Source: Hexactinellida sp. DTS-2022 (lineage: Eukaryota > Porifera > Hexactinellida). Taken from it: 64,000 bases of DNA. Below, one piece after another: positions 14,270 to 61,750 of the stretch. Every line of letters begins with the position of its first letter. Position 1 is the first letter of the stretch. The translations under genes were made by a program, and so were the position numbers. The DNA lies in assembly GCA_028753945.1 (NCBI GenBank), contig JAPNXP010000009.1:3224001-3288000 (forward strand), read 5' to 3'. The notes below the pieces were generated by a model. The model saw only the letters and a program-made list of their open reading frames with translations. It was not told where the DNA came from and did no database searches.

Positions 14270-15970
14270 CTGGGACAGATCCCTAACAATACTCTCAACA
14301 TTTGTCATCCTTGTGCTATTTAGGTATATGAATTGTATACGTATTAGGGAAAAATCATTTTCTAGATCTTTATGCCTTGGCTGCTTAATTTCAAATAGAT
14401 TTTCTTCTCCTTTCAGAGTGTCAGCATGGAACTGAACTGGGAACGCTGTGTGATTTGCCAGCAGGAGAGTGGTAAACCCTTGAAGTGTCCATTGCTGAGC
14501 CCTGGATCAAGTCGTGACAATACAGATGCCTACACATAATTCCTTACCAACGTAGAACAGTTCCGGGCCATTGGTACTCTTCCAGCTGAACTATATTTTG
14601 GGAGTGATGAAACTGTTGCCAACTTTGCTTCTCATTCTGCTCCCTGGCACAAATCTTGTCACTTGAAATTCAACAATTCTAAGTTAGCAAAGGCAAAAAA
14701 GAAGAGAGAGCGCAATCATGATGATGAAGAGAAAAGGCCCAGTAACCGCAAAGCACTTGACGTTCAAAAATGTTTATTCTGCCAGAAAGGGGAAGAGGAA
14801 CATGTTCTTCATGAAGTTTCAACATTTGATGCAGACAAAAATAATCTGGAAATAATCACAGAGCTAAACGACACCCAGCTCTTGAGTAGAATAATTGGTG
14901 GAGTTCTAATTGCAATGGAGGCCAAATACCATCTGACATGTATGGTCAAGTTGAGAAATCGCTACCGTAGTCTCACTCGCAAGCTAAAACCAAATACCTG
15001 AAGACACAGATGCGAAAATGAACTAGTCTCGCGCATTTAAAGAACTCATCAGATACATTGCGGAATCTGTGAACTCTGGAACTCTCCTCTCCAAACTATC
15101 CGAGATCCATTCTCTGTATGTGAAACGTCTAGAAGAACTGAGCTTCAAGAAACTAGTCAACAAGACCAGGCTGAAGGATCATCTGCTAGAACGATTTCCC
15201 AGTGGCACAAGAACAGTAGTATGATGGAAGAAACATTGTTCTCGTTTTCAAGGAAGGCATGAGAAATAAGTTAAAGGATGCTCTGAAGACTCGAGACTTC
15301 TCAGAAGATGCTCTTATCCAGGACAAATCTGCTACGTTAGTCAGAAAAGACATCTTAAGCCATCACGGCACTCTGGAACGTGAGCCACCCCTCCCCATCT
15401 ACATTGGCAATTTGGCATCAATGTGCATGCACTGAGCAGAAGCAAGACACTCATCCAGCAGTTATACCAGAAGGGCATCAGCGTTTCCTATGACAGGATT
15501 ATGAAAATTGAGGACTGGATCGCCACTTCTACCTGTGAACGCTTTATAGAAGATGGAGTAGTTACTCCTGCTGTCTCCGGGAAGAGTTGTTCACTGTTGA
15601 CGCCACGGACAACCTAGACTACAACCGCATCTCAACCACTTCCCAAACATCATTCCATGGGACTGGAATCAGCCTTTTTCAGTTGCCTACCAAGATCAAA
15701 GCTGGTGTGAGCAGTAGGGCTGTACCGGATATCCGGTTCTAATCGGGTATCCGGCTGTATCCGGCCGGAACCGGATATGAACAACTATCCGGCCGGATAA
15801 CGGTCCCAATTGTATTTGTGTATGAATTAAAGAATAACTATATATCCGAATATAAAGTGAATTCCCATAGCTCTAGGGTCATTAACTGTCTATTTCTTCT
15901 GTCGTTCTAAAGTCTGGTACAGGTTTTCTTGTATAGATATTCTTGGAGTAGAATTTAGATAATGTGTACA

Positions 15971-16114
15971 TTGCCGGCGCCACGTATTATGAGGTGTGGC
16001 AGTAGTGGGTGTCCACTGTATAGTCTAGTGGGTGTCAGTGTACAAGCACCGCTTCATTTCCTTGAGGCAGTGGGTGTCCGGACACCCAGGACACCCCCGG
16101 TGGCGCCGGCCCTG
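15971..16114. mobile_element. MITE with CCGGCGCCAC tips
   Basis: TTGCCGGCGCCACG on the left and GTGGCGCCGGCCCTG on the right enclose repeated GTGGGTGTCC words. The flanks GTGTACAT and GTGTAATA are a plausible, decayed 8-bp duplication. It is nested in the hAT-type element. Confidence 0.65.
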
Positions 16115-16457
16115 GTGTAATAGCAGAACTAGTTGATTGAAAAATACTATGATCACCTTGTGAATTTCTACAAGAGGATTTTCTTTTATAATTTTTTGTA
16201 AATTTTTTGATGTGAATGTTTTGTGTTCTTCAGTGGTGACGTGGTATATATTTTAGGATTTACCACGTGATATATGTATTGGCATCACATTAACCACAGA
16301 GTGCTCTGAAAAAAATCGTTATTAGATAGTGAGAAATGCAACCTTTCAAGCTAATAGGAAAAGAGATCAGAAAATATATATAGGAATCGAAAATAAATAT
16401 GTTATTGAAAAGATCTTAATTACCAAAGGTGAATGCGATTGAAAGCATATTCATATA

Positions 16458-17098
16458 CCTTCCCCTACCAAAAGTATTCGTACACCAAAAAATTTCCTAT
16501 GGAAATAGTACTATATAACTCTAATATTTATCGCTAATGTATACAAATTATATGAGATGTCGCCACTTTGGTTTCAGAATCGTATTCTACGCCACCGAAT
16601 TGACCATTGTAGAAGCTTTCAACTCAATTACATATTTATTAGTTTGGAAATTATCATCCGGTGTCACCATGTACCACTTCTTCCATTTGTCCCCATGGTT
16701 CAAGATGGGAATAAGTGGTACATGGTGGCATAGGATGATAATTTTCAACCTAATCAGTAGCTAATAGAGTTCAAACCTTCTTTAAATGTATATTTCGAAT
16801 GCGTAGATTACGAATATGAAATCTAAATTGCAATATTACATGTATTTAGTGCAGGGTTTTTTTAAGGGTCTTCTTGGTGGCAAAATGCCAACAAGATTTT
16901 GGGAAGTTACACCACGATTCGCTTCGGCCGCAGCTGCTGCAGTGTTGAGTTACACCACGGCCGCTGCTGAATGACACCAAGGTCTCAACCTTAAAAAAAA
17001 CCCTGATTTAGTGTACAACAAACATTATTATTGACACACTATATTACTAACTTGTATGGGAATGCTTATGGAGTACGAATACTTTTGGTAGGGGAGTG
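16458..17098. mobile_element. Tc1/mariner-type palindromic MITE
   Basis: CCTTCCCCTACCAAAAGTAT and the complement (ATACTTTTGGTAGGGGAGTG) are flanked by TA. The middle (16620-16760) is itself a hairpin built on CACCATGTACCACTT. The 75-codon ORF here is repeat sequence. The MITE 16852-17005 is inserted in its right half. Confidence 0.8.
16852..17005. mobile_element. 154-bp hAT-type MITE, perfect TSD
   Basis: The tips CAGGGTTTTTTTAAGG and CCTTAAAAAAAACCCTG are flanked by ATTTAGTG on both sides (16844-16851, 17006-17013). It is the innermost of four nested insertions. Confidence 0.9.
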
Positions 17099-20000
17099 TA
17101 CTGTATCAATTGTGGAATCACATAAATTATTTTAGAAGCCTCCCTAAAAAACTCAACCTTAGTATATGTGCAAATTAATCAAGAATAAGCAGAACTTGTT
17201 CTTGATGTGATATTATGGTATCATTATTTAGCCGGATATCCGCCCGGATAACCGGATAATTGAGCACCGGATATCCTGATCCGGCCGGAGTAGAGAAACT
17301 CTAATCCAGTACATCTCTAGTGAGCAGACCACTTATTGCGATACCACCCTCTGGAAATGAAATTCATCCTCTTCCAGACAACTACGCCTCTGTCCCAGCC
17401 AATGCAAAGAAGACCACTGCTGTCTCGGTGCCAGAGTGTGATGTATTTAAAGACAAGGGCGGCTGCTTAGATGAGGCCAGAGAACTGGATCAAAGCTGTG
17501 TAGAGCATGCACTACCACTTCTAGAGAGAGAAGAACTCACCAGTGGAGATGCCATTGCATGGACTGCCTACTTTGCCTCTATGCAACCTCCTGTAGAAGA
17601 CCCTCCAGCACTATGTGCACTCCTTCCTCTGTTCTATGAGAAGTCCGCCACTCCTGCTATGAAAAAGTACGGCATGGATGTCGTGAGACAAGCTATCGAA
17701 TTTCTGAATCCTGGACAAATCCCAGTCACTACATTTGACCAGTCTCTGTTTACCCTGGCAAAATTTGTACAGTGGAGATGGCCAGACACTCATGGTGAGA
17801 GAGTTCATGTGGTTATGCTAGGTGGTCTGCACACAGAAATGGCCCTCTGGAGTACACTGGGTGATGTCTTGGATGGTTCTGGCTGGACAACGGCCCTCAC
17901 ACCCAGAGGTAGCATACTGTGGCACAGCTGATTCTTATCTGAACGCAGCACACCTAACTCGAACCAGGCATGCCCACCAAGTCACTCTCTTCCTGCATAT
18001 TCTCCAGAAGGAGGCTTTCATGCTAAGCGAGGGTCCCAAAGACAATGCATCTGCCATGGTCTGGAGAAACGACATGCAGAAGAAGAGTCCTACTTTCATG
18101 TACTGGGACCTGATCATGAGATATGAAACCCTAATTCTTATTTTCGTCAGGACTCACAGAGAGAAAACTTTCCCTCTGTATGTGGAGGTTTTGGAGGAAC
18201 TTACACCACTCTTATTTGCCTTGGATCATGTTAACTACTCACGGTGGATGCCTATCCATATCAGGGACATGAAGTCCTTGCTTGACACTATCAATGATGA
18301 GTTTGAAAGGTGTTCCCACTGGGTCCTTTCCAGACCACCAACAAGTTCTCTGCCATCCCATTTGATCAGGCTCACGAGCAGGAGAACAAGATTGCTGAAA
18401 GGATCGGGAGGTGCTGTTCGGCTCACACAAAACCCGGTTGCTTTTCGACGATGGATGCTCTCTGGCCCAGAGACTGCCAGACTGCTGAAGCATTCTGAGG
18501 AAGAATACCCTCATCATGATGATCCACAGATACCCAAGAACTTCCAGCACCACGAGCAGGCTGTCTCGACACAGAAGTCCTTACAGAGACACGTTACCAG
18601 CCTCTCCGAAACCATCAGAAGAATGGGCAATCCCTTCTTTGATGATTTCCCAGATTTAGTAACTCTCGACAATCGAACCTGCGCAGACGAAACCGCGGTA
18701 GTCGCAGTGCACAGCTTGGAGGATACAGGCAAGAAACAGTACCATGAATTCGTCAAGAATGTGCTTGATGTCCGCAGCCACTCCATCCATGATCCAATCC
18801 ACAGGAATTCTCTTGTGATCTTCAGGATTCATCACCGTAAGGTAACATCTAAGCAGGGGAAGAAAATCAAAGTTCTTCAGAACAATGTGTCACTCTTTGG
18901 TCAGCTATACATATCTATGCAGAACCGTGAAGGTGACTTGGCTGAGTTCATTGCACATTAATTACAGTCCTTCCCTCCTTCCCTCTCAGACTTTGGCAAG
19001 CTTCATTTACCAAACACGAAGTTTGTCCTGCTGCAATGTCTTGAGCAGCCCGGGCAATCAGAACCACCGTCAACTTACGACTGCAAAGTCATGGATGGTG
19101 CCGTCATCGTCCACTTCCTACCAACTCTTCCATGAGTATGCAGACATTGGGATTCATACCGTACCTGGAGAAGCAGATGCAGACTACCACGAGGTTGGAT
19201 GTTGTGTGGGAACATACATATCAGACAGTTTGAAGGAGTCTACCCGGGAAAAGAGAGGTAAGGGCGTGCAGGAAAATCTCAGGCAAGACGAAACTGCCAG
19301 GCAATTGGATGGACTTTTTCCGTGACCCATTGAACAAGAATGAGCTGTCGCCTTTTTACTTCCAAGGTTGAAGAGTTAAAATTGCCACCAGCCAAAGCTG
19401 TATATGTCACATCAGGGCAAGCTGTGGTGTCTATTGGTGCCAGCACCCCCATGGAAAACTGCAATCATGAAGAGGCGGACACCAGAGTTGTGGTTCACAT
19501 AGTGCATGCATTGGAGCAGGGGTCAAAGACTATTCAAGTGTATACCGTAGATACAGATGTTGTGACATCCTTGCACGCACATTCCATGATCTGATTGCAC
19601 TCATGCTTTAGCAGACATCTGGGTTGCCTTTGGCATGGGAAAAAATTACAGGTTTTCCACATAAACACCATCTGTGCAAGCTTGGTGGAGCCAAAATCAC
19701 GAGCATTACCTGTATTGCATGCATTTTCAGGTTGCGACACACCCTCTGCCTTGAACGGCAAGAAGTCAGTTTGGCAGGCCTGGCATGTTTATGAAGACAT
19801 CACAGAGCATTTGTGTATCTCGCCAGTCACCCCTTCCAGCTGCTGGATGTCGACGATGACCATTTCAAAAAGATCGATAGATTTACTGTTATCCTGTATG
19901 ACAAAACCAGTCCTTTGAGATCCATCAACGATACAAGAAGGGAACTCTTCTGTCACAAGAATCGAGCAATGGACAAGCTGCCACCCACCAATGATGCGCT

Positions 20001-20332
20001 ACTCCAGCATGTCCGACGTGCAGTGTATCAAGCAGGAATCTGGACGACCAGCACACAAACACAGCTAGTGATTCCTTCTCCACATGATTTTGCCTGGACT
20101 AAGATATCAGATTCGTGCCGGTGGGTACCAGTTTGGCTGACAATTCCAGAGGCTTCCAGAGCGTGCAGGGAGCTGATCAAATGTTCTTGCAAAGGGGACT
20201 GCTCCATCTGCCAGTGTGCCAAAGCAAATCTTGACTGCTCACCACTTTGCTAGTGCAAATGTACTGTTTAGAATCTTTAGATCATATCAAAGTGTATGTA
20301 TGTAACTGTGACTGTTGCTATAGTAGTTATTG

Positions 20333-20338
20333 AATAAA
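20333..20338 (+). terminator. Poly-A signal of the transposon gene
   Basis: AATAAA lies 80 bases after the end of the CXC-motif reading frame (stop at 20251-20253) and is followed by an A-rich tract. It fits the 3' end of the transposon mRNA. Confidence 0.6.
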
Positions 20339-20490
20339 ATTTTAAAAAATTCATATCTAATTCTATAACTTTGTATTTAAGTAACATCTTCATATGATTT
20401 TTTCATCAATAGGCCCTAAGGAAGCCTCATTCAAAATATGGTGCTCTTATCCGCAATGTAACTGTAATTTCACTAAGCCACCTCACTATA

Positions 20491-32894: not shown

Positions 32895-34720
32895 CGTGAC
32901 CTACGTTATAATAAGGCCTATTCAGTGTTATCAAAAGGTGGACTATGGATACTGTCGAAGGCCATTGTAAAATAGAGGGCACTTCTTTATCTCAATTATT
33001 AGTAATGGTAGACCTGAATATGTTTTGTAACCAGACCTGGGGCTGATTACTAGTGAGTGATTACGATTACGATTACGATTACATCCTTCAGAAAAAGCTT
33101 GATTATGATTACGATTACGATTACACGGAATGTTGTAATCGATTACAATCAATTACAATTTCATTTTCTTTACGATGCAATACGACGTTCCGATTAAGCC
33201 CCGGAGTTTCATGCGCACGAAAAATAAGGCCCGTGTGCATGGGAGTAGCCACCAAGAATTATTTGTAGGGACCAGATATATCTTTCGGGGTGCAATGAGA
33301 TCAGTGAACCCTTAAACTATAACCTTATTTAAAGTTATTGTGGAAAATTTGGGGGGTCTGGTGCCATACCTGGGGCTGATTACGATTACATCCTTCAAAA
33401 AAAGCTTGATTATGATTACGATTACGATTACAGGAAAAGTTGTAATCGATTACAATCGATTACGATTGTAATCGTAATCAGCCCCAAGCCTGTTTGTAAC
33501 TATATGGGAACATCCGAATATGATATATAGAACCTTTCAGAATTGAAAAATGTCATCATTTGATGACGTAATAGTCAATTTCGTCGAATTATCGTGTTTT
33601 AACACAGTTAAACGCGTTATATATGTTCAACATTGGTACATGATGATACCCAGACCTAGTTAAACAAAATATATCAAAATTATAATACGAATGTTGACAC
33701 ATACATTCCTCGGTTGTCAGGCAAATGTATATTTCCTAAAATGAGCCATAACACCAAAGCTATAATTGTTATGTAAACTAGACTACGCCTCATCTATCCG
33801 CAATAGGTGACTTCCTATTCATCGATAGTACATTTTATATGCCTTACTTTGATACTTTTTGAGTTTATGAGATAATTAACACTTAATTCATTATTAGGTA
33901 ATGACTCACTATCTCAAAGATTATTGAAGTTAGGCATATAAAATGTATTACCGATGAATAGGAAGTTACCTATTCCGGACAGATCAGTACCAGTCTAGTT
34001 TACATAACATTCATAGTTTTTGAGTTATGGCACAATTTAGGAAATATACATTTTCCATGGCAACCGAGGAATGTGTCAACATTCCATTTATAATTTCGAT
34101 ATATTTTATTCTACTACTTCTGGGTATAACCATGTTCCAATTTTGAACATTTATAACGCGTTTAACTATGTTAAAAGTATGCTGGAAAAAAAAGATAATT
34201 CGCAACCAAAATAACCATAACGTCATCAGATGATGACATATCACAATTCTGGAGGGTGCTATGTATACCTGGATACCATATTCCTATATAGTTATAATAC
34301 ACTTTTCAGCTCTATCATTGCTAATTATTCGAATTAAGATCAATTCTCCATTTTGAAAATTAGAAACTGGCCTCTTTGTTTTATGGCCTTCTCGGCGACA
34401 TATATAGCCGTATATTAAGTAGGCCATGCATGTACCAATGTTGAACATATATAACGCGTTTAACTGTGTTAAAACAGGTCTTTAAAACACGATAATTCGA
34501 CGAAATTGACTATTACGTCATCAAATCATGACATATTTCAACTCTGAAAGGTTCCATATATCATATTCGGATGTTCCCATATAGTTACAAAACATATTCA
34601 GGTCTACCTTGACGAATAATTGAGATAAAGAAGTGCCCTACATTTTACAATGGCCTTCGACAGTTTCCATAGTCCACATTTTGATAACATTGAATAGGGC
34701 TTATTATAAGGTAGGTCACG
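32895..34720. mobile_element. Large fold-back element, arms of several hundred bp
   Basis: The sequence from CGTGACCTACGTTATAATAA inward (left) repeats as reverse complement from 34720 inward, with an internal centre near 33870 (AATTAACACTTAATTC). Once the MITE 33032-33492 in the left arm and a P-like family-2 end (about 34370-34432) in the right are set aside, the two halves pair over most of their length. The terminal wording is that of the P-like MITEs. There is no coding content. A single strand would form a hairpin of several hundred base pairs. Confidence 0.85.
33032..33492. mobile_element. hAT-type MITE with GATTAC array, copy 1
   Basis: The tips CAGACCTGGGGCTGATTAC and …GTAATCAGCCCCAAGCCTG are flanked by TTTGTAAC on both sides (33024-33031, 33493-33500). 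The uninterrupted site exists in the other arm of the host fold-back. It is filled with GATTAC/GTAATC words in both orientations, including TGTAATCGATTACA palindromes. Confidence 0.95.
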
Positions 34721-35989: not shown

Positions 35990-38900
35990 ATAAATATTAT
36001 GTAAGGTAAACAATAATTCATGAGAATTTTTCAATTTACGTTTATCGATACCTATTTGAATCACAGAGGAGTTCGAGTTTTTAATTTTATTGTAAAGAAA
36101 ACAAATAGCTGCAGTTAAGATTAACTTGCTCAAAATACTCCATCTGTACACATCGCAATTAATACAATTTGATTTCCAGATAGCAATATCATCATCATTT
36201 TCCATGTATATCAAGGTGAGTTCTAACTTCTACTAATAACCTTCTAGAGGGACCGTCTACAAGCAAAGTCAACAGCTGATTAATTTCTATTGCAATCATT
36301 ATATTCCATAAAGTTATAACTGAAGTGAGTACAGGCTCAGACGGATACTAAAGTCCGCCACGATCTGTTAATTGTAAGAGCTTAAACTCAGTATGTGATT
36401 CAACATCAAAAACAAATTCTTTATCATAAGTTAAAGTATCAGTGCACCAGGCCTTCATCTGGGTGCGCAGTGCGCACCCAGGGGTGCGTGATTTTAAGGA
36501 AAATGTTGGAAAGGTGCGTGAAATTGAATTAATTTGGGTGCGCAATGCGCACCCAAAGTATTTTTAATACTAATTTTGGTCTTTTTTTTGGTAAATTTGG
36601 GTGCGCGATTGTAAAAAAAACATTACCTAGGGTGCGCGGATCTCTTAGGGCTAGATGAAGGCCTGCAGTGCACACAAGGCATTCCGGAGATCTTTTTAAG
36701 AACTTATGGAACGTATAACCTGCGATAAAAGCTAACGACTGAAGGATTTGTTGAGAGCATTCAATGAATGATAGATCGCCAATTTCATCAAGAAAAGGCA
36801 TTACAGCTATTCCATCATCACTAGATGTATCAGAGGGGGTAGAAAAATACTTTACAAATGTCTGAATCGTTTGGAAAACGTCTTGTTGGTCTGCAAACAT
36901 GTTTAATATACTAGAAAGTTTAAGACGACGCTCGGTTTCAAGAATATGAAGGTAATAAATATGGTAATTCGAACCCGACAACATACGGTAGAGTCCAAAA
37001 TGGTGTTAAAACGGGTCAGTTTGCAAAAAGGATGATAATACGTAAGAGAAGCCACAATATTCAGTGAGATGGTTTGTTAAAAGTGGTATGGCAGTACAGG
37101 CATGTCTAAAACTAGTATAAGTTTGCTTACTCAATTTACACGTTTTGTCAGGTAAATCCTGCCAAGCATCTACACAAAATACTATCGTGTCAAAAAATGA
37201 AAATCGTTCATCGTTTAACATCAACGGTCTTGAGAGGCTATCATTTAAACGGGTCCCTTTGAACGGCGTATTGATATTGAATATTTTCTAAAGAGTAAGA
37301 AGGATACTTACGAAACTAGATGTATTATTACGATAATCCGGACAACGACTTTCATTTTGGATTTCAAGAGCAGATAGTGTAAGTTCGCTAACAACCTTCA
37401 AAACCAATTTGACATTTTGCCTTTCTAAACTAGAAGGAAAACAAGCTTTTACAGTCAAGTGAGGGGCTAGTTTTGCTAAACTGTATCGTTCAGAATTGTA
37501 GAGAAGGCGTACATCTTGAAAGGAAGCAGAATGGACACTGAGGGGGTAGCTGCATTTATCAACGTCAATATGTCCAAAATTTGGAAAACGAAATGTTTTA
37601 TCAAAAAATTTCTGATTTAACCAATTATTGCGGATACTTTTCAATATATGGACAAAATCAAATGTAAGGAAGAGAGATCTATTTTCATCAAAAGGGTGGG
37701 GTACTCTAGTTTCCAGCTTTCCACTAATAGAAAATAATTCAAACAAGTTAACATTCAACGGGTAGTTATTGGTAGAAATTATTTGGACCACAATGCTCAA
37801 TATCGATTATACAAGATTTGATAGTGGGAAAGATATTTTTAGCCGGAGATAGATGCACATGGTAACAAACGGGTAATACAAGACCATTTCCTATGCAAAC
37901 TAGACACAATAATCGCGAATACAGTTCTGGTCGGTTCCTCAGGGTTCAAATTTGGTGCAAATATTTCCCCCCCTTTATAAGCGATATCAGATTTAACATG
38001 GATTTCATCCATCTGAATGATAACATTTTTTTCCTCGGAACTAAAGCAAGTTGTAGCCTGGGTGAGATAAGTGCAAAAATCATTTTCAAGACCGAAGGAA
38101 GAATACAACTTATCTAGTGTATGGACATGTGGTAGAGTAATACATTCTAACCCTGAAGATAGGTATAACAAGCTGGAGAAATTAGATGAGTCTTAATGGA
38201 CAAAATCTGTGTAATTATAATTGTATCTTCGCCTGTTTAGGAATAAATGTATTATCTAATTGACAGAGAATAAATAGAAGCTTAGCTAAATCTGAAGAAT
38301 TGTATGTAGGTCCGTCGATACGCGCTAAATCATCAATAACATTATTTATATGTTTTTTGGCAAAAGGAATATGGTATGAATGTGAGTTACAACTAGAATC
38401 AGAGACAGATTTTAAGGAGATTTCATGCAGTATAGATTCAATTTGTCGAATATCATTAATTGAACATACCGAAAGGGGAATACTTTGTCCATGGAACCAG
38501 GCGGATACAAATAAAAAATTATTTACTTCCAGATATAAATCGACAGAAACAGTCCTATCAACCATGTTGGGTTGAATGAACCTAGTATTATGATTATCAG
38601 GATGCCATACTAACCAATTATCAGGTAATGCAATCAAGATTAACTTAGCTTTTAGATCCTGTAAATTTCTGATGATGTACTTATGTTTCTCCTCACTCTC
38701 AGAAAGTAACCTAAGCTGTAGTGTCTGATTCATCAATTCTTCTTATTTTGCGACATACGACAAGCGAGTCCGTTTGGTTGTTGTAGTTGAAGAATAGTAG
38801 GATGGACAACCAGGAAGCAAGCAGGGAACTCCGCCGTCTCTCAACTTGGGCTTTGCACGAGGTATTTCAGTGAAAGTTCCGCTCCATTGGGAACCTTGTG

Positions 38901-47285: not shown

Positions 47286-47905
47286 GTCATCATTAATTAA
47301 ATGTGGCCTAAACAGCTTAACCACAAATCTCAGATTCTCAAAAGTGATTCCATTGAAGTGGCAATGGTTGATTATCCCATATGCAAGCAAATTATGCAAA
47401 TAGGTAGCATAGTTTAGCTTAGAATAAAATTTCAAAACTGCTCTTATTTTTTCTTATGATTCGGTAGCATTTATAGTCGTATATATCAGACTCAGAGTGG
47501 ACCATGGGTCGATGGGTCAGATGGGTCATGGGTCACGGCTCTGTAAGCCATGACCCATTTGGAATTTCGATGTTCGTCCAGTTATAGTATGAATCAAATT
47601 AACCCCAGAAACATTACAGTGTATTTCTTTGGTATTAGAAGCAAAATTAATTGATTGACAAGTGTCATACATATATTGTAAGTCGCTTTGTGTTACATAA
47701 TGTTTAGATATTAATAGTTACCCATTGACCTTTTAAATAGTTATTTAAAAGGCCAATGGATAACACGATGGATCAAAGCGTTACTTGATGGGTCAAGCGT
47801 TACTTGATGGGTCAATGGGTCAATGGGTCATGGGTCACAAATGCGATGGGACATGGGTCACAAATGTTGACCCATGGTCCACTCTGGTGTATATAGTAGG
47901 CCATA
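47286..47905. repeat. P-like family-2 end, split by a MITE
   Basis: TCATCATTAATTAAATGTGG through CTTAACCACAAATCTCAGAT to GTAGGCCAT is a diverged copy of the arms at 48147-49933. It is interrupted at 47493-47886 by the MITE listed next. Confidence 0.7.
47493..47886. mobile_element. MITE with ATGGGTCA array
   Basis: CAGAGTGGACCATGGGTC and the complement …GACCCATGGTCCACTCTG form the tips. More than ten ATGGGTCA-type words occur near the two ends. The duplication is not clear. Confidence 0.8.
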
Positions 47906-48135: not shown

Positions 48136-48557
48136 CAGGGGCGGGCCATGGCCTACTTAATATACGGCTATATATGTCGCCGAGAAGGCAATAAAACAAA
48201 GAGGCCAGTTTCTAATTTTAATTCTAGAATAAACTATGTCTCCTATTGTTGTTATCTAGGTTGTAATATGGGGTAATCAACCATTGCGAGTCCATTAGAA
48301 CCACTTGAGAATCTCAGATTTATGGTTAAGCTATTTAGGCGTCATTTAATGATGACGGTAACAATTTTTGGTAAAATGAAAAATTTCAGTTACTTCCTAC
48401 TTTCTAATAATTTTATAATAGAAATACTAATTAATAGGGATATATTTCATACCCTAAAGGCTACTAAATCACAAAATGGCGACATTCTAAATTTGTTAAA
48501 AAATAATAAAGCAACCACGTGCTAAAATACAAGTATTATCCGAATTACAACTTACTA

Positions 48558-49569
48558 CAGTAGAAACCCGCGAGTCGGGGCACCCCTCGTATCGGGGCAG
48601 TCGGTTGGGAATTTGGTTTTTTCAAATTAAAAATAACCCCGCCTATCGGGGCGCCATTCACTTATCGGGGCACTCCACCTAAGATTATTTCTTTTGAGTA
48701 ACATGCTTTTACTTTTGAGCAGCTTAGTATTCTTTGTAATGGCCGCTAAGCGTCACCCACTCACGCTAGAGACTCGTGCTGAGGTAATCGGGGGAGTTTT
48801 TCAAAAAGAAAATTCCGTGAAGATCATAGATTTGTGACTCCTAGTGTAGGTAAAGTATAATGTGAAATTGTAATGTGTTGTACTGCTTAAATATCAGCCT
48901 TAACTCTAGGTTTTGACTATATCTATAGTAATAAAACACAAGGGCGGGTGTGTGTATATATATATTTGTTTGTATGTTCCGAGTTGATTGAAGAAACTGG
49001 ACGGTTTCCAAATGTGATTTTTGGCATATAGGGGTAACTTTTTGCACCCGCCAGCAAGTTGAGGTTTCCACTCAAAATTTCTCACACCTCGACAAGTTAT
49101 GACGTCATTGTCACATTTAGAGAACCCTGAAAATTCACTTAATCGCACATAATTCGCGCCCTTTAAGAGATAAAAATTTGAAAATTTAAGAGAACGTGTA
49201 CATTAATGATGCGGACACGTTGGTCACACCAGATTACCAATATGCTTACTCATTATCGCGTGATGACGTAATCATTAAAATTTCACATTATTAAATTTGA
49301 CTATTTTTTCCTATTACGCTTTATAATCAATATTAGGAGTATATAAACCACACACCAACCGCGAAGCGGTTGGTGTGTGATGTGTTCTGCCGCGAAGCGA
49401 CCTAGCAAGCGAAGCGCGCTAGTGTGTATGATTTGTTGTGTTGGTGCTAACTTAATTGTTTTAAGCAAACATATTGTAGTTTGCTTAGAACCCCGCATAT
49501 CGGGGCACTCCTTTGTATCGGGGCGCTGAGCGCTTGGACGGGGGTGCCCCGATACGCGGGGTTCCACTG
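48558..49569. mobile_element. Pogo-like MITE copy 2, carrying a Helitron
   Basis: CAGTAGAAACCCGCGAGTCG on the left and the complement …GGGGTTCCACTG on the right, TA on both sides. It aligns with 6826-7332 except for the 501-bp insert at 48922-49422; without it the length is 511 against 507 bp. Confidence 0.92.
48922..49422 (+). mobile_element. Non-autonomous Helitron, 501 bp
   Basis: It starts TCTATAGTAATAAAA, ends GCGCGCTAG, and lies exactly between A and T with no duplication. The empty site GACTATA|TGTGTATG is preserved in the sister MITE (7178-7195). A GC-rich hairpin-prone segment (GCGAAGCGACC…GCGAAGCGCGC) precedes the CTAG end. 5'-TC, 3'-CTRR with a nearby hairpin and A|T insertion are the Helitron hallmarks (established knowledge). 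The ORFs inside are not Rep/helicase. Confidence 0.92.
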
Positions 49570-50298
49570 TATTTTCGTTCATATAACTTATATAATTGCT
49601 GGTTTATATATATTCATTCTCATTATTTATTCGGAAAATGTATTCTAAGTATACTAGCAAATTATTTTCATTTTCTTGTAGTTCTTTAGACTCGAATTGT
49701 ATATTTTTGTATATTTGTCGTGTCATCATTAAATGGCGCCTAAATAGCTTAACCACAAATCTGAGATTCTCAAAAGTGGTTCTAATGGACTCGCAATGGT
49801 TGATTACCCCATATTACAACCTAGATAACAACAATAGGAGACATAGTTTATTCTAGAATAAAAAATAATAACTGGCCTCTTTGTTTTATGGCCTTCTCGG
49901 CGACATATATAGCCGTATATTAAGTAGGCCATGGGCAGCCTTAGGGGGGGCGAGTAGGGCGACCGCCCGGGGCGCCACTCCTTGGGGCGCGCTTAAAGCC
50001 TATTGTCGGCGCCATATGCGCCGAGCCCGAAGGAATTTGGGGCGCTTGAACGCCACCTGGTAGGTTGCGATCTCAAATAGTTAATAGAAAATATAGATGT
50101 GAGCACCCCTCAACAATGTATGAGCTAATTGAGTTCTGGTACATTGAAGATTTTACAAAGTTTGGCTCAGCTCGTTGGCTCAAAATATACCAAAATATCC
50201 TTTGCGACTATTGTTTTTAGGAGGTTATAACCAGTGTTCGAATTAGCTCGGATTTTAACAGCAAACAGCAATTTATGCTGTTAATAACAATTTTTCAG

Positions 50299-50445
50299 GA
50301 CCTATCACGAGTCATTTGATTGACTCAATGACTCGCGCGAAACCATGAGTCATCGAGTCAGACTCGGTATTTGGGGTCACCGAAATTTGCCACGAGTCAA
50401 ATGACTTGGTGACTCGAGTTGAAAAGATCGTGATTCATGAAAAGC
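50299..50445. repeat. Array of GAGTCA/TGACTC words
   Basis: CACGAGTCATTTGATTGACTC, in shorter words GAGTCA and TGACTC, repeats in both orientations about ten times. It resembles the subterminal word arrays of the hAT-type MITEs, but no tips were identified. Confidence 0.6.
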
Positions 50446-51398: not shown

Positions 51399-52442
51399 AT
51401 TATTATCTCTACCTGTGATGATGGCGCATCAGCCTATTGGAGTATCCCGGTTAGAGAGGAAGATAAGGAACATACCACAAACGTGTAAACGAGGGGAAAG
51501 ATTGGATTCAACAGGATGCCATTCGGACTGTGTAACTCACAAGCTACATATCAGAAAGCAGTAGATAATGCCTTGAATGGAATCTCAATGCAAAAGCATT
51601 CGTAGATTACATGATTGTGCACTTTAGCGACTTAGAGCACTTGGGACATCTAGACAGTGTTCTCTCTGTTTTAGGTAGGGCTGGAATTCAGCTGAGAGTT
51701 GGAAAATGTAGGTTTGCATTTAAGTAGGTGGAGTGCTCGGTACCTGGTATCGGAAAAAACGGCGTCAGCATCTGCCAGCTACACTGTCACACATAGGGTC
51801 CTGGCCCCAACCTAAATAACAAGAAGGATATTAGGCGGTTCATTGGATTGATAAATTGGTACCGAGAGTATGTCCCGGGCATAGCAGTGCTTGCACTTCC
51901 ATTGCACCATCTAACAGGGAAAGATATTCCTTGCGTATTGTCGTAAAGTGCGAAACAAGTTTCTCCCAATTGAAGAGTCGGTAAATTCTTGAAACCTCGC
52001 ATTCCCCAGATGGATTGAACCATTTTATATTGAAACAGACGCTTCAAGTAAAGCCGTAGGGGCAGTTCTATCGCAAGAGGACATGGATAGAAAATGGAGA
52101 GCTATAGAGTTCTACTCCGTAGGTCTGATCCTGCGCAACAGAGGTATGCAGCCGGAGAACTCGAAACATGGGTATAGTATCGGCAGTTCTCAAGTGGCGG
52201 ACATACCTACGGGCTGCTAAGAATATAGTTGTGATAACTGACCAAGATCCAATTACCTGGCTGCGTCAGCAAGAGATCCCCGTAACAATTTCGCTCGTTC
52301 TCTCCTCGAGTTGGAATTCTATAACTACTATATTGAATACAGACGGGTCGAGGCCGCAGACTTCATGAGCCGACTGCCGGCGCAAAGATACAAAGGGATA
52401 GAGGATGAAGAAGAACATTTGGAGTGGTTTATCAATTGGTAA
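51399..52442 (+). pseudogene. Ty3/gypsy reverse transcriptase-RNase H remnant
   Basis: In order on the plus strand, with frame changes: CDDGASAYWSIPVREEDKEH (RT motif A region), RMPFGLCNSQATYQKAVD (motif B), FVDYMIVHFSDLEHLGHL at the active-site block where the usual second Asp reads Tyr, a connection segment KKDIRRFIGLINWYREYVPG, TDASSKAVGAVLSQEDMD (RNase H start), VITDQDPITWLRQQEIP and DFMSRLPAQRYKG near 52370-52400. The wording is that of Ty3/gypsy LTR retrotransposons. Several stops and frameshifts are present. No LTRs, integrase or protease were found, so it is a fragment. The upstream coding piece at 47990-48135 may belong to it. Confidence 0.8.
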
Positions 52443-53342: not shown

Positions 53343-53754
53343 TAGGGCTGAAACGAATATACCGAATATTCGAATATTCGTTCGAAATGATTGAACGAAT
53401 ATTCGTTCGTTTGCAAACGAATATTCGTTACGAAACGAATATTAGTTTGGACGAATATTAGATTGAAACGGATATTCGTTAACTAATTTTGGGCAAAACA
53501 AGACTTTTGTATAGCTGAGAGATATAGTAAATATATATTCCCACTTAAACTAGCTGATTATTAGTCAACTTGTGTATAATACACTTTGTGACTATTATTA
53601 TACCATTCTAACATTATCAAAAACCTATTTTCCATAGTATTTTGTCTCTTGAAATTGATTTAATGCTTAGTCATCCAAACGAACGAATATTCGAATATTC
53701 GTTCGTTTAGAAAAAGGTTCGTTCGTTACATTTCGAATATTCGTTTCAGCCCTA
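53343..53754. mobile_element. 412-bp hAT-type MITE with CGAATATTCG words
   Basis: TAGGGCTGAAACGAATATAC and the complement (TTCGTTTCAGCCCTA) are flanked by AAAAATAT (53335-53342, 53755-53762). Each end carries several overlapping CGAATATTCGTTCG words. The first bases TAGGGCTG equal those of the element at 15715. Confidence 0.95.
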
Positions 53755-53762
53755 AAAAATAT

Positions 53763-54326: not shown

Positions 54327-54784
54327 CAGGCTTGGGGCTGATTACGATTACAATCGCAATCGATTGTAATCGATTACAACTTTTCCTGTAATCGTAATCG
54401 TAATCGTAATCACCCACTAGTAATCAGCCCCAGGTATGGCACCAAGCCCCCCCCAAATTTTCCACAATAACTTTAAATAAGGATATAGTTTGAGGGTTCG
54501 CTGATCTCATTGCACCTCCAAAGATATATCCGGCCCCTACAAATAATTCTTGGTGGCTACGCCCATGCACACGGGCATTATTTTTCGTGCGCATGAAACT
54601 CCGGGGCTTAATCGGAACAATCGTAATTGCATCGTAAAGAAAATGAATTGTAATCGTTTGTAATTGATTGTAATCAATTACAACATTTCCTGTAATCGTA
54701 ATCGTAATCATAATCAATCTGTTTCTGAAGGATGTAATCGTAATCGTAATCGTAATTACTCACTAGTAATCAGCCCCAGGTCTG
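54327..54784. mobile_element. hAT-type MITE with GATTAC array, copy 2
   Basis: CAGGCTTGGGGCTGATTACG and …CAGCCCCAGGTCTG are flanked by ACTATTAC (54319-54326, 54785-54792). It lies in the opposite orientation to copy 1 at 33032-33492. Confidence 0.95.
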
Positions 54785-54809
54785 ACTATTACAATTACAA
54801 TTACATTAT

Positions 54810-55020: not shown

Positions 55021-56149
55021 AGTTTTATTAACTAAGAGCCCAAATTTTCAGGATATGTGTCTCATGGGTTACAGATGTGTACCTGGGGTCACGATTTTTT
55101 ATTACAAATTTTTGGCCACATGTTTGCACCTGTTTAATATTGAAACAGGAACAATAAATAGTACCCGAATATTCAATTTATATCCATTCGATAGAGAATT
55201 TAATTCTACACCTTTTCACAGTGCACGAATTTTTTGATTGGGTTTCGTTTGTGCCACAATTGAGTTGCAAATTCCCTTTGTTTACTTACACTTCAGTTCT
55301 ATTGAAAGTGTTAAATCTAATTCTATTGTTTCAACTCGTTATTATAATATTGATTCAACTTATGAAATCGAGTAGGCTTCTATTTTCCAATTGAAAACTT
55401 AGATTTACATTCCATAACAACGACAAATTATGTGATTATATTTATTTCTGCTTAGAATATTCTTGCACAATGGATATGTCGCAGGCGAAATTGAGTACCA
55501 GGCGAGATTGAGTCTCAATCTCGCCTGAAACTCAATTTCGCCTGCGAGTGTCAGGCGAGATTGAGTACCAGGCGAAATGGAGTCATATTACTTATAGAAA
55601 ATTTTTAACTAAATATTATGGGTTGTTATAAATTGATTATATCCAGATCTAATCCCGCTATTTGTTCACTTCCAAATGTTAATACTAGGTAATCAAGTAT
55701 GCTGAATACGAATTTGACACTCACAATTTCTATTATGTCTATTTATTGTTGTTATTTACAATATAGGTAAAAAAATTAAGGAATATTCCAAATTAACATA
55801 GAGACTAGCGGTTATTTTAAGTAATTGCATAGTATACTAAATACGAATTTAGTCTAGAATTAACTACATATGTACTTGCAAATAAGTGCTGTTTGTTGTT
55901 AAAGAGACACTTAGTGACACTTGTATTTGAGATACATACTAATTTCTAAGCCACTTACTAAGTTACTAAAAGGCGTCGTTACTCGCCCGGGTGCCCGGAA
56001 GGGTTGCCCTTATGCTACTAATACTATACCCGGAGTTTCCCCGGAATTTCCTGGCTGCCCGAAGGGTTGACCTTTGCATTTACGACGCCTATGCACTTAC
56101 TGTATAGCGTCAGGAGGGAGGTGTCGACCCCACCCTCAAGTCAGGGGAG

Positions 56150-57610
56150 AGTATCTTGTTGTTCCCAATATTTTATTCAATGGTAAATTCTGGGGCTACG
56201 GTTACGATTCAATTTCTCGCCACGGTTAGCCAGTCAACCGCCCGTGCTGATCACCACAGTAGAACATTATTTATACTACATAATTAGTAAGGTTCAGCTT
56301 TGTTTTTATTCCTTACTACTGCTACATTTCGTCCTTCAGAAAATATTAAATCAAGGCTGAATTCGGTTAACCGCCGCTAATACCGGTTAACTGTTACGGA
56401 TTTTAGTGATCAGTTAACCGATATGTTAATATTACAATTTACAATTAGAAGTACAAATTATTGGATAACAGTGTGAATTTGCACGCATTTTGTTCAGAAT
56501 ATAATAATTGTTTATCTTATTACCCATAGTCACAGATATATTTTGGTGACAACACAGTGTAGAAGTAACCTGAAGTGATAAACTTGTACGCAGTTAATTG
56601 TACTAATAGAGTACTTAGCTAAAAGAATGTGTTTTTCGTTACTACAATTTAGATATTTTCTGAGAAATGTCTATATATTTTGTTATAACTTTCAGTGGCG
56701 GTTAACCGGTTAACCGTAGCGTGAAGATAATCGTAACCGTGGCCTCAAAATGGTTAACCAACCCCACCCTTAACTATAGTTTATACAAGGCTCGATTTGT
56801 TAACCAGCTGGCTAGCGGTTGCATATTTCGTTAACCAGTTAGCCGGCTTGTTGATAATCAGCAGCTAGCAGTATTATTTGGAAATTATCTTACAGTACAT
56901 CCTCGCTAGTCCGAACAGGAGATCCAACGTATATTACAATGGAATCCTAAATTAATAAGTCTCAGACAATAAATTAGGTAGTATACTACATGTTTAGTTG
57001 GATTAAAATGCTTTGGACAAGTTTGATCCAAATTATCGGAATCTCATGTAATAGAGGCCAATAGAAAATGTATTACTTCACTAATCGGAACAGAAATTTT
57101 TAAATCGGAACACCTCTGTTGGGATTAGCGAGGAAGTACAGTATAAATAATTAAAATATCTGAATTTTGTTGAAAATGATGATCATAAATCCATTTCTCA
57201 TCACTACAATGACCCATTATATATTTTCTGTAACTACACTGTTTCTAACTTGCCCAAATTGCGAAATGTATTAGTTAATGACTACTTATGGAGTAATACT
57301 TTATAATACTGAGTCCTACACTGTAGTATAAACAAAACGAATCATACCTGTAGCCTCAGAATGGTTAACAACCCCACGCTTGGTTCTTAGGAATTTACTA
57401 CATATGGAATTGCATATATTTAAGATTACCATATTCTAACAAAATTAATATAATTTAAATTAGTGTTTTATATACGCAATTACATTGATATTATTTAATT
57501 AGATTAACAGAGCGGTTAACTGCTCAATTAAATCTGTAACAGTTAACCAATATTAGCAGCTGTTAAGCGGTCACCCGGCTAACCGAATTTAGTCTAGACC
57601 TGTGAATTGA
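56150..57610. repeat. GGTTAACCGG-rich nested MITE block
   Basis: GGTTAACCG-type self-complementary words occur at 56215-56250, 56365-56420, 56695-56720, 56750-56765, 57365-57390 and 57500-57590. They form at least one, possibly two nested palindromic-word elements (tips near TTCGGTTAACCGCC and the complement of GGCTAACCGAATTTAGTC). The exact tips are unresolved. A pogo-like MITE (56893-57141) is inside. Confidence 0.55.
56893..57141. mobile_element. Pogo-like MITE (CAGTACACCCTCGC family), decayed copy
   Basis: CAGTACATCCTCGCTAGTCC on the left and GGGATTAGCGAGGAAGTACA on the right, TA before the left tip. It shares interior wording with 25729-26027. Confidence 0.8.
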
Positions 57611-57849
57611 GTCTAGTCTGTAGGTATCGTTTCGCCCCTCATAATATTATTTGGGGTGGCCGTTAATAGACAGCCGGGACCCCGGATCAAAACCTCTTGA
57701 ATAAGATAGGTTACGAGATAGCAAAACAATTATTGAACTACCAGAATTACAACTGGTGGATAACCTTATCCTAAAGAATGCACTATTGTTAGCCCGCCTA
57801 TGGTCTCGCGGGCTACCAAATCCGGCAGTGATTAAGCAGACCACAATAA

Positions 57850-57905
57850 TCTATATATTAAAAGCACAATAGTTCTTTGTGAGTGTGTGTGTGTGAGTAG
57901 GTATG
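57850..57905 (+). other. Helitron-like 5' end
   Basis: TCTATATATTAAAAGCACAA, preceded by A and followed by a GTGTGTGTGTG run, has the form of a Helitron 5' end like the one at 48922. A matching CTRR end with hairpin was not identified downstream, so the extent is unknown. Confidence 0.45.
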
Positions 57906-59817
57906 TGTTTGTCCGGATTACATTAAAGTAATTCGGAGATAAAAAACGCATCTCTATTTGAGATAAAAACTAACTAGAGGCCTGCATTTGTCCGGCTCCG
58001 TATGTCGGCATTTGTCAAAAATTCCAAATATCAAATGTTTAGAATTTTCCGACTACTTTGTCTCTATGTTTATGCTGGCATTTCTCCGACTGTTTATTAA
58101 GTATCGCAATGTGAGTATTCAATAACAGTTGTAATTTATTTATGTTTTCTCTCAACACAATTTTTGTTGATATATGTACTTTTCAGATCTTGTGTTTTAT
58201 TTAAACATGATATATTGGCTAATAATAGAATACGTATAATAAATATATTAATGCTATTTAGTATTTGATATTTAAATTAACATGGATTTTACTCAATATA
58301 AATAAAATCGCTGTTCAAAATATAGAACATATGAAGGTCACAAGTTGTTTGTATCCAAAAGAAAGATAATCAATATACTAGGCTTGTGCTCTTTTTAGCT
58401 AAGCTCAGTCAAGAATGTAATCATATTAGTTAGCTTTCACAGTCAATATGTGTTACTGTGCTATTTCTTTTTCAGTCGTTACATAGCACCTTTTTTATAG
58501 AGAGTGCTCCTGAATTAACATTTAACAAGGCCTCTTAGTGTGTAAGAGGTTTTCTGCTGAGCACCCATTAGGGTCGCTGGCTATACTTACTCCTACGCAC
58601 TTGACGCCCACTATAGTTAGGGCTGACTTCGCACCTGTCCAAAGATTATATTACTTAGTGAAAGTAAAATGTAATGAAGCTTCTAAATAATTTTTATTAT
58701 CAATTATATAATTTATATTACATATAATTACAATACACATTTATTGTTTGTTTGAAGGTACGAGAAACGAAATGACTTTCAGACCCTGTAGACATGCAAA
58801 TTGGTGTAGATTGCAGAATGAAATAAAATAACTTGGATTAACATTCGTATTTGTCATTCACCAATTCAGAGCAGTTTCGAAATAATATCATTTAGAAGTT
58901 CCTTAATTCCCACACACTGACCTTGAGTTTGAGATTTTCTGATTAATTCCCAATCCCATTCTGAATGGACTGGGATTAATCTTAAAATCTTTAAAACTAT
59001 AATTTCCATAGGGATTTGGCCCCATCTCTGGTTGCATATTCTAACAATTGTTATTTTTAGACTATTTTCCAATATTGAGAAAGTAGTCTGAAAAATGTCA
59101 ACATCTTAGATTCGGAGAATTCCCAGATACGGAGTTTGACGTAGTCTCGGAATGGGATTAGTAGGGCCCATAGGTTAGTCCATTACGGTGACATTGGGAG
59201 GCCATTGCACATTGGTGATTCAATTGGCAAACTTTTGTATGTCCATGGCCCTACCAACCATACCAGAGCCTACGCCTTTGTATTGTTAATTTATAGATGC
59301 ACATTTAAACACATTTACTACATAATTAGAAGGTAATTACTCATTTACTCACTATACATTCTCAAATGAGTGATATTGATAAGCTGATTTAACAGCAAAA
59401 CCAGCTATTAAACCAACTAACAACACAACCAGCTTATCAATAAACTCAACATTAATTTGAGAATGTGTCGCGATTAATTATGTTCTGTTTATGGTGAATG
59501 TATTGAAAATTATATGTATTGGAGATTAAACTGGTGGCTTAAGTTAAATGGTTTGAATTCGCGAGTAGATTAGGATAAATATTTATTAGGAGGAAATACG
59601 AGCCTACAGTATAATCTCGTTCGCTTTTGCTAGGGAATACTTAACTATTCCACTTAATTAATTATCATGTATAATTTACACTTTACAACGCAATATAATT
59701 AACTTACAAAAGGATTCGTATTCATTTTGTCAAGTCTTCAATATTAATCTATATACGTAACTATATGATACTTGTTTGCTTACTTACTTATAATTTAAAA
59801 TCTCAATCTTATTCTTA
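57906..59817. other. Interior of the 4.8-kb element, no gene found
   Basis: Sparse short ORFs only. The only order visible is AT-rich sequence with an imperfect hairpin at 59365-59460 (CTCAAATGAGTGATATTGAT, and complement words TATCAATAA…TTGAGAATG). Confidence 0.4.
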
Positions 59818-60825
59818 GTCATTAATTCCCCAACTTTAACAACAAACAGCCCTTATTTGCAAGTAGTTAATTCTAAATTCGTATTTAGCATATGCAATTA
59901 CTTAAAATAATCGTCTAATCTCTATGTAAATTCTAATATTTTACAAACTTGTTTACCTATATTGTCAATAACAACAATAAATATTTGTATTAGAAACTTG
60001 TGAGTGTCAAATTCGTATTCAGCATACTTTGTTTACCTAGTATGATAAGTGAACGAATAACTGGATTAGATCTGGGATATAATCAATTTTTAACAACCCA
60101 TAATATTTAGTTATAAATTTTCTATAAGTATTATGACTCCATTTCGCCTGGTACTCAATCTCGCCTGACACTCGCAGGCGAAATTGAGTTTCAGGCGAGA
60201 TTGAGACTGAATCTCGCCTGGTACTCAATTTCGCCTACAACAGATACATGACATATTTAATTCTAATTAATTCGCTGTGTGTTTAACTTATAGAGACGGT
60301 TCCAATTAGATTATTGGGGTTATCGAGTGTGCAGAATTCAAATATGATAGTGAAATTAAATTTAAATTAATAATAATTGCAAATAATTGAACTTAATTTA
60401 TTTTGATGTACATAATAATGGTGTTAAATTATTAATTAATAAATTAAATATTTAGACAAATTAGCCAAATTTGATAAATCTCAGAGATTATACAAGATGG
60501 TCACAAACTTCCAATTTATCAATTGATCCTTATGCCACGTACCACCTCTACAAATGGGTCTTGACACCTTGGGTGTTTATGACATCGTAAATAAATGTGT
60601 TTTCACAATTTTGTGAATTATAAAATTCAAATGGGTCGGTTGGTTTTGAGTGATCACACAACACGCACATAAAAATGCTGACTCATCACTTATTATTTTG
60701 TACTGAAATTAGAATATCTTTGATACGAAGTGAGCAAAATGGGAACTTCCACCACTCTAAGGGACGTTGCCTTCTGAAACACCATTCTGAAATAATTTAA
60801 CACCTTCATAGTGATGATGACATGG

Positions 60826-60948
60826 CAAAAAAATCCAAAATTGCAGCCTGTGGCGACAGCATGTTCCTTTGGAGGCACTATCAATAAACAACCAACAAAA
60901 TATAGTGCCACCAAAGGAACATGCGTCGGCACAGGCTGCAATTTTGGA

Positions 60949-60952
<4 letters not shown>
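60826..60952. repeat. Long hairpin ending tandem unit A
   Basis: AATCCAAAATTGCAGCCTGT and GCATGTTCCTTTGGAGGCAC pair with the sequence running to 60952, about a 55-bp stem with a ~15-base loop. The same hairpin closes unit B at 62811-62938. Confidence 0.9.

Positions 60953-60985
<33 letters not shown>
60951..60985. repeat. (ATT)n microsatellite
   Basis: About 12 ATT repeats directly after the unit-A hairpin. The equivalent site in unit B (62932-62942) has almost none. Confidence 0.95.
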
Positions 60986-60986
<1 letters not shown>

Positions 60987-61008
60987 GTCCGTATCCTCTA
61001 CACACAAC

Positions 61009-61750
61009 TAGGGGTCTCAATCCCGGAGCCTTTTTCCAATCCCGGGATTCCGGGATTGGAATCATGTTCAATCCCGGGATTGATCAAATAATTTATTGAC
61101 ACTTGACCAATCATGCAAATATGTTGAATTAATGTAATTGTGTATTGATTGATGACTCCATTACATAATAAATAGAGCATAAGATCGTAGTATAGTAATA
61201 ATAATATTTTAATTAAGATTTTTCTGATTATTCCTGATAGGAATTTAAATCTATATTTATATGAAATGGTTCAAGATTGTTGTTAATAAACAAAGCATCA
61301 TGTTATCAAAAATTCACCTAATGACAAAGCCACACGTAATTGAACAAGTAACGAATAATTGTTACCGAGAAATGTAAGCGATAAAAATGAATTAAAGAAT
61401 ATAATTACAGTCAGGTTCTTTTATTGTGAACATTCAAGGGACCAAAAATTGTGTTCATAATAGAGAGACTTCATAATAAGCGAACTCAACTTAATACAAC
61501 CCCTATGTAAGTTGTTAAATTGGAACTGTAGGGTTTTTGTTCATAATAATAAATCTTCATATTATCAGACGAAATCTTGTTCATAATATGCAGACCTGAC
61601 TGTATATGTCATGCGAGAAGATAATATTCACATCAAGCTTCACTATCATTGCTATACTCATAATATATCTGGATCCCGGGATTGGAAAGTCTAATCCCGG
61701 GATTGAATCCCGGGATAAAATGGACCGGGATCCCGGGATTGAGACCCCTA
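61009..61750. mobile_element. 742-bp hAT-type MITE with AATCCCGGGATT words
   Basis: TAGGGGTCTCAATCCCGG and the complement (CCGGGATTGAGACCCCTA) are flanked by CACACAAC (61001-61008, 61751-61758). Several AATCCCGGGATT words lie at both ends. The MITE 61408-61602 is inserted inside. Confidence 0.95.
61408..61602. mobile_element. 195-bp MITE (CAGTCAGG family), copy 2
   Basis: CAGTCAGGTTCTTTTATTGT and …GCAGACCTGACTG, flanked by TA on both sides. Same family as 47034-47226. Confidence 0.9.

Follow-up and report, generated by a model that had tools for sequence, protein, structure and literature searches.

Subterminal word arrays of hAT elements in a glass sponge genome and the BED fingers that may read them

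Why should several families of miniature inverted-repeat transposable elements (MITEs), all within a few tens of kilobases of one another, each carry a repeated short word of its own next to the tips? The question is raised by a 64,000-nucleotide stretch of the glass sponge Hexactinellida sp. DTS-2022 (C18:3224001-3288000, hereafter the window; the genome comprises 112 Mb on 18 contigs), in which nine arrays of such words are found. A preliminary description proposed that a single hAT transposase lineage with a conserved tip had diversified its DNA-binding word, each MITE family matching a different finger specificity. Our survey supports the view that the word follows the recognition helix of the transposase's BED finger, different words accompanying different helices (12 helix types, ten distinguishable words). 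We consider it highly probable (about 0.88) that the arrays serve hAT transposases as subterminal binding sites, with finger and word changing together.

The nine arrays, which lie in elements or repeats designated A to I, are real: their core words, picked by us from the arrays, are more frequent than in every one of 300 dinucleotide shuffles in nine out of nine cases. The repeating unit is a half-site of about 6 bp in either orientation, and exact copies of the longer words are few (CCGGATATCCGG and ACGTATTATACG, one each; TGTAATCGATTACA and AATCCCGGGATT, three each; CGAATATTCG, seven). Perfect 8-bp duplications together with matching tips are found in five window elements (A, B, C, D and E), which bears out the earlier observation of repeated words near the tips of cleanly duplicated elements; two of them, A and C, indeed start with TAGGGCTG. 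The elements and arrays are listed below, with the copy number of the core word and, in brackets, the maximum among the shuffles.

Repeat I, 12764-13130: ACGTAT words, 8 copies (4).
Element A, 15715-17319: non-autonomous hAT element of 1605 bp with tips TAGGGCTGTACCGGAT / TAGAGATGTACTGGAT and perfect duplication GTGAGCAG; ATCCGG, 13 copies (5).
Left array of A, 15725-15798: seven ATCCGG in two orientations.
Right array of A, 17232-17284: five ATCCGG.
Element B, 33032-33492: MITE of 461 bp with tips CAGACCTGGGGCTGAT / CAGGCTTGGGGCTGAT and perfect duplication TTTGTAAC; GATTAC, 20 copies (3).
Left array of B, 33045-33146: GATTAC/GTAATC.
Right array of B, 33378-33479: GATTAC/GTAATC.
Element G, 47493-47886: 394 bp with CAGAGTGGACCATGGG at both tips; its flanks ATCAGACT / GTGTATAT mismatch.
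Arrays of G, 47514-47873: GGGTCA, 11 copies (3), on the left at 47514-47556 and on the right at 47790-47873.
Array H, 50309-50415: GAGTCA in two orientations, 7 copies (2).
Element C, 53343-53754: MITE of 412 bp with TAGGGCTGAAACGAAT at both tips and perfect duplication AAAAATAT; CGAATA, 18 copies (4).
Left array of C, 53354-53478: CGAATA, head-to-head pairs of which form CGAATATTCG.
Right array of C, 53684-53743: CGAATA.
Element D, 54327-54784: MITE of 458 bp, of one family with B, with perfect duplication ACTATTAC; GATTAC, 18 copies (3).
Left array of D, 54340-54425: GATTAC.
Right array of D, 54650-54771: GATTAC.
Array F, 56187-56751: GGTTAA/GGTTAACC, in a repeat whose copies reach both ends of the tested stretch; GGTTAA, 8 copies (3).
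Element E, 61009-61750: MITE of 742 bp with TAGGGGTCTCAATCCC at both tips and perfect duplication CACACAAC; ATCCCG, 15 copies (3).
Left array of E, 61020-61080: ATCCCG, head-to-head pairs of which are AATCCCGGGATT.
Right array of E, 61673-61739: ATCCCG.

Genomic copies, as expected of MITEs (short, non-coding, multi-copy, with common tips), were found for C (958), B/D (320), E (2164), F (560), G (419), H (193) and I (311), these numbers being first-look candidates with 40 scored per family. Copies of C are 93-100% identical, 39 of the 40 scored spanning the full length and one starting at base 3; for I, 39 other scored copies are 79-82% identical. Element A, within which a 154-bp element lies at 16852-17005 (tips CAGGGTTTTTTTAAGG / CAGGGTTTTTTTTAAG, duplication ATTTAGTG), was followed genome-wide by its word alone: CCGGATATCCGG occurs at 255 sites, versus 1 for a reversed control pattern. 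Different insertion sites were checked for E alone, and four of its five fetched copies (L105, L107, L108 and L109) have perfect duplications of their own, the fifth running off its stretch after six matching bases. The arrays first listed without proven tips fared unevenly. G has good tips without matching flanks, and an element with G tips at C18:3128592-3131418 carries the perfect duplication ATTCGGAG; this G-tip element hosts, inside its ATGGGTCA array, a nested transposon of the AAATAC type. The right end of the H element was not found within the window, and one of five fetched H copies (L114:102-594) has tips and the duplication AAAAATTG. An inverted-repeat search for the tips of F gave no clear result, and no tips of I were found in the window.

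That the window elements are hAT elements, as first proposed, is supported by the 8-bp duplications and by BED and dimerisation domains. Profile searches of the genome returned at least 150 hAT dimerisation domains (PF05699; 150 of 638 candidates scored) and at least 62 BED fingers (PF02892; 150 of 186 candidates scored). Among 29 assembled blocks of more than 3.6 kb each, picked for BED or dimer matches, a transposase-bearing element whose ends match is present in 17 (the duplication being perfect in 16 and agreeing at 7 of 8 positions in one); for the transposases of the other 12 blocks, no matching ends were found. Six open frames of more than 600 amino acids bear a BED finger (e01, e05, e07, e13, e15 and the L082 locus, at which element ends were not found). 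All six proteins given have a BED finger, and both of the whole ones, L088 and L082, have a dimerisation domain too. The sequence pattern of a CxxC...H zinc finger could be parsed in 56 of 59 BED fingers; PDB sequence searches with single BED fingers gave no matches. A Hermes-like RNase H fold is predicted from the model of a relative, P0001, which is not a protein of this genome (mean pLDDT 74.3; all 12 matches at E<=0.001 are Hermes).

As a rule, the tips of hAT elements start with YARNG. A scan that did not require the G found it at position 5 of both ends in 15 of the 17 transposase-bearing elements; C stands there at both ends of e11, at one end of e14 and also in window elements B and D, and a separate element scan, which required G, is blind to such tips. 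Several tip classes occur (CAGGG/CAGGC, TAGGG, TAGTGA, TAGAG and CAGAG), and one near-identical tip, CAGGGTTG or CAGRCYTGGGG, precedes arrays of AAGTAC, AAATAC, CAAATAC, TATTAC, GATTAC, AACTCA, ATTCCC and AATCCA. The duplications show the target preference nTnnnnAn of the Ac/Hermes type: T at position 2 or A at position 7 is present in 32 of 36 duplications of array-bearing elements as against 19.6 expected, a count that leaves out 13 array-less candidates and the 7-of-8 case. The same pattern is described for Hermes (PMC10368747).

The arrays are a property of the element ends. In 20 out of 20 elements the top 8-mer of the terminal 350 bp exceeds the maximum of 20 shuffles, while the top interior 6-mer occurs three times at most in 18 of the 20 (five times in e06, seven in e14). 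When the word was taken from the left end, its count at the right end was higher than in any of 200 shuffles for 24 of 26 elements, B and D being cut up to 10 bp off their ends in this test; the two misses, e14 and e19, have another element nested near the left end. The first word starts 9-13 bp after the tip at 52 of 66 ends, compared with simulated means of 7.4 and 9.6 and a simulated maximum of 21. These 66 ends include near-copies (e01/e02, e07/e10/e17, B/D), and the word register was chosen by us for each family, a choice that affects the exact figure.

Within the arrays the copies are irregularly spaced in two orientations, and a palindrome forms where two half-sites abut head to head. 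The preliminary description of the words as self-complementary thus applies to some head-to-head half-sites and is not general, the words of G and H being non-palindromic. It could still be that recognition requires the whole palindrome, with BED domains binding as an obligate pair, seeing that AATCCCGGGATT, CCGGATATCCGG, AAGTACTT, CGAATATTCG and TACCCGGGTA recur and that Hermes binds a quasi-palindrome cooperatively (PMC10368747). However, many copies are single half-sites or same-direction tandems, and the arrays of AACTCA, GGGTCA, CAAATC, GATTAC and AATCCA are mostly non-palindromic. We therefore rejected obligate palindromes and regard this explanation as unlikely.

BED fingers were read at 59 of 62 matches, each with up to 650 bp of upstream sequence, and gave the following pairs of helix and word.

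STKGLH[VIM]: ATCCCG.
STSSLRK: TACCCG (single locus).
TTGL[RK]N: TAACCG.
T[ST]PLWN: ATCCGG.
TTSGMKT: CCGAAA, one core with the next word.
TTC[PS]MKL: CCGAA[AT], one core with the preceding word.
T[ST]NFIK: AAGTAC.
ATSNLLL: AAATAC, one core with the next word.
STSNLWT: CAAATAC, one core with the preceding word.
STSNFHT: AATTAC (one strong and one weak locus).
TCSNLTT: TATTAC (single locus).
SSSNLIR: CAAATC (single locus).

The word of the class occurs at least three times upstream in 45 of the 59 BED loci, and the other listed words never exceed five copies anywhere. Words also transfer between loci that share no 20-mer: a donor's word was recovered (at least four copies) in 44 of the 106 pairs with the same helix (6 or more of 7 residues identical) versus 27 of the 1882 with different helices (4 or fewer of 7). 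The pairs are not independent, and nine hand-listed stretches of neighbouring elements were masked. Counted by locus, 15 of 33 received the word at four or more copies from one or more donors, and for 7 of the 18 misses the only possible donor locus itself had no clear array; many of the missed transfers concern loci without an upstream array. An apparent conflict at C18:2895605 is a separate upstream MITE with its own duplication.

The pair formed by T[ST]NFIK and AAGTAC has a direct parallel. The Hermes helix T65-S66-N67..R70 sits in the major groove at AAGT, where N67 contacts A and R70 contacts G (PMC10368747). Arrays of AAGTAC in the TSNFIK family mostly start after 13 bp. By analogy with Hermes, each word may be bound by its own finger, and the other helices may read other words in the same geometry.

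For two window families the finger can be named. The transposase-bearing elements e01 and e02 have the tip and the word of A (their own tip is TAGAGCTGTACCGGAT) and fingers of TSPLWN type, and E has the word of the STKGLH-type loci L051, L052, L060, L082, L085, L090 and L097, with which one of its ends can be aligned over 42-84 bp (82-90%). Hence A and E do not share one invariant finger, and the situation in which the MITE families depend on a single autonomous partner with an unchanging finger did not arise. No autonomous partner whose finger could be read was identified for B/D, C, F, G, H or I. The proposal that each MITE family has its own finger thus stands for A and E and is an extrapolation for the other window families; the association of different words with different recognition helices is supported (12 helix types, ten words).

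Several observations weigh against a reading of the word by the helix. The 14 words of the matrix were selected after inspection, and the table therefore describes the association and does not test it. STSSLRK, TCSNLTT and SSSNLIR come from one locus each, and some other types from near-copies. The class word is absent upstream in 14 of the 59 BED loci; three have the expected array downstream, at dimer matches without an upstream array (C6:2394880, C11:7388044 and C6:2855592), and the remaining array-less loci may be decayed or domesticated. In only 34 of 56 parsed loci does the top 6-mer outnumber that of at least 99 out of 100 shuffles, and in two weak pairs, STSGLLR/TTCCCG and TTNLIR/TAAGTC, no array reaches significance. 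Nor can residues be assigned to bases by one simple rule in every case: the R that ends the helix pairs with CAAATC in e06, but reads the G of AAGT in Hermes. Lastly, the helix covaries with the finger scaffold, so that statistics alone do not single out the helix, and in a Mantel test the word was more closely correlated with the scaffold than with the helix (word/helix 0.18 and word/scaffold 0.35; partial correlations 0.13 and 0.33). These correlations are weak evidence, given that some STKGLH[IM] helices were misplaced and that neighbour words were included (C2:2258199, C6:2272849, C18:2895605).

Separately, STKGLH-type BED fingers without an array in the 600-650 bp upstream were noted at C11:11827469, C3:2718317, C15:2685222 and C15:2621391, and may be decayed copies or domesticated genes. 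The hAT dimer domains L014, L018, L022, L028 and L030 have the downstream words AAGGGC, TCCCGGT, ACCCGGT, GATCTG and GCCCGC, respectively, with no nearby BED match among those listed (150 of 186 candidates scored).

Could word and finger be linked by common descent only, with no functional match between them? A tree of the dimer domain, built quickly from a short alignment with some long branches, holds 32 of 40 rows after array-less rows were dropped; C11:7976046 was labelled AAATAC because a nested MITE lies there, and C13:2205739 was given no label. The word labels follow this tree, requiring 12 changes where the minimum is 11 and shuffled labels need 22.4 (near-copies contribute to this), and the similarity of words can be predicted from the identity of the finger scaffold no less well than from the helix. 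However, the word is often kept with the helix between loci that have no 20-mer in common (the 44 of 106 pairs), and words therefore outlast the sequence around them. Moreover, each element has many copies of its word, which lie at both ends and seldom in the interior, and the e07 pair agrees with the solved Hermes contact. Descent alone is thus an improbable account.

The tree also bears on the history of these transposases. It contains several deep lineages, and on this ground, together with the several tip classes, the single transposase lineage of the preliminary description was rejected as unsupported; what survives is that several words share a near-identical tip. Within one tree group the words vary by one base in an xAyTAC frame, TATTAC lying beside AATTAC (support 99) and CAAATAC beside AATTAC (91), although single joins are unsure. 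Among distant relatives, STKGLH is the helix in 32 of the 68 with a readable helix, and the others vary; the glass sponge Oopsacas minuta, insects and Hydra are among the named sources of relatives. No relative turned up in a scan of viral contigs, which gave 28 matches to the pattern. On the whole, the earlier interpretation is partly supported: most of its substance holds, but it allowed for too few lineages and overstated the palindromes.

Two further explanations do not concern transposases. The arrays might be sites for host proteins such as promoter, enhancer or silencing factors, and the left array of autonomous elements, upstream of the transposase start, could conceivably double as promoter sites. 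But arrays are also present at the 3' end and in gene-less MITEs, the distance to the tip is narrow and the word changes with the finger; we hold this very improbable. Microsatellite growth by slippage in AT-rich elements, to which the partial periodicity of GATTAC in B/D, CAAATC in e06 and AAATAC in e20 might point, was rejected and has next to no likelihood in view of the irregular spacing, the two orientations, the arrays at both ends in 24 of 26 elements and the arrays common to E copies with different duplications, hence to independent insertions.

How might such a system work? In the mechanism that we propose, the catalytic domain would act on a short tip starting with CAG or TAG. After 9-13 bp there would follow the family-specific 6-bp word, with more copies in either orientation over about 100-200 bp. 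An N-terminal BED finger would read the word through the helix that immediately precedes its first zinc-binding histidine, as a result of which additional transposase subunits could assemble along the array and hold the active site at the tip. MITEs, reduced to tip and array, would ride on whichever transposase has a finger reading their word. Finger and word would have changed together, leaving many word systems side by side in one genome.

Part of a code is visible at one helix position: where the residue four places before the zinc histidine is N, the words are of A/T type, and where it is G, P or S they are of CCG type, a partition that is confounded with ancestry. In the decayed locus C6:2858169 the residue is Y, yet AAGTAC is kept at the other end. 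The chances appear to us evenly balanced that the following holds as a whole: the genome would be a natural, cis-encoded library of BED fingers and DNA words with a readable recognition code, in which N four before the histidine specifies AAGTAC, AAATAC, AATTAC, TATTAC and CAAATC, and G, P or S specifies ATCCCG, TACCCG, TAACCG, ATCCGG and CCGAA; other helix changes would reprogram single bases in xAyTAC, and transposases with one tip would split into mutually blind MITE systems.

Some other features were noted in passing. A short hAT-like element lies at 36448-36665 (tips CAGGCCTTCATCTG / CAGGCCTTCATCTA, duplication CAGTGCAC). Two inverted-repeat pairs, at 33611-34460 and 48222-49858, have apparent 8-bp duplications (AACGCGTT and TTCTAGAA) that are themselves palindromic, and the pairs therefore probably belong to longer inverted repeats of a transposon of a different type. 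Near H, the sequence at about 51440-51880 resembles, judged by eye, a reverse-transcriptase fragment of a Ty3-type retroelement. Elsewhere in the genome, an ATCCGG-type transposon is nested within an AACTCA-type element at C2:2257647-2261463.

To our knowledge, the specificity of BED fingers has been measured for few proteins. Here the DNA molecule that encodes a transposase also contains its probable binding site, many times over, and finger/word pairs could therefore be read from the sequence of any hAT-rich genome. Such pairs are ready predictions for binding assays, and offer a testable account of how related transposons might cease mobilising each other's MITEs. The hAT transposons themselves, the binding of BED fingers to subterminal repeats and the diversity of BED specificities were already known; the new element is the many finger/word pairs of one genome tied to its MITE families, of which we found no report in searches of openly licensed papers.

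Among known systems, Hermes of the housefly is the closest (PMC10368747). It shares the 8-bp nTnnnnAn duplication, the N-terminal BED domain, subterminal half-sites in both orientations and a quasi-palindrome adjoining the tip; in Hermes, two fingers bind the quasi-palindrome cooperatively. The position of the first sites matters in both, a 1-bp shift impairing cleavage in Hermes, and its TSN helix with AAGT corresponds to the e07 family. The sponge genome differs in that many word families and many different fingers occur together, most of the words being other than AAGT. In Tol2 of fish, a AAGTACTT palindrome directly follows the tip, as here (cited in PMC10368747). The Herves transposase of Anopheles gambiae likewise has one short subterminally repeated word, CG/AATTCAT, that suffices for binding (PMC3143072), although Herves is one element with one word. 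For Mar, a Drosophila family of hAT MITEs, origin by deletion of a full-length element was proposed, and the available part of the text does not mention word arrays (PMC3517528); PMC4423477, in the part consulted, deals with CACTA and nDart/Dart. Finally, Yellan et al. (2021; PMC8097297) obtained diverse microarray motifs for BED-Hermes domains, most with CGG and some AT-rich. The motifs of four hAT proteins matched their own subterminal regions, and at least eight coelacanth proteins had distinct motifs; hAT-derived BED proteins, moreover, repeatedly become host regulators. Their measurements concerned mostly domesticated hAT-19-related proteins, whereas the pairing described here was read from the elements by sequence, comprises 12 helix types in one genome and is linked to MITEs.

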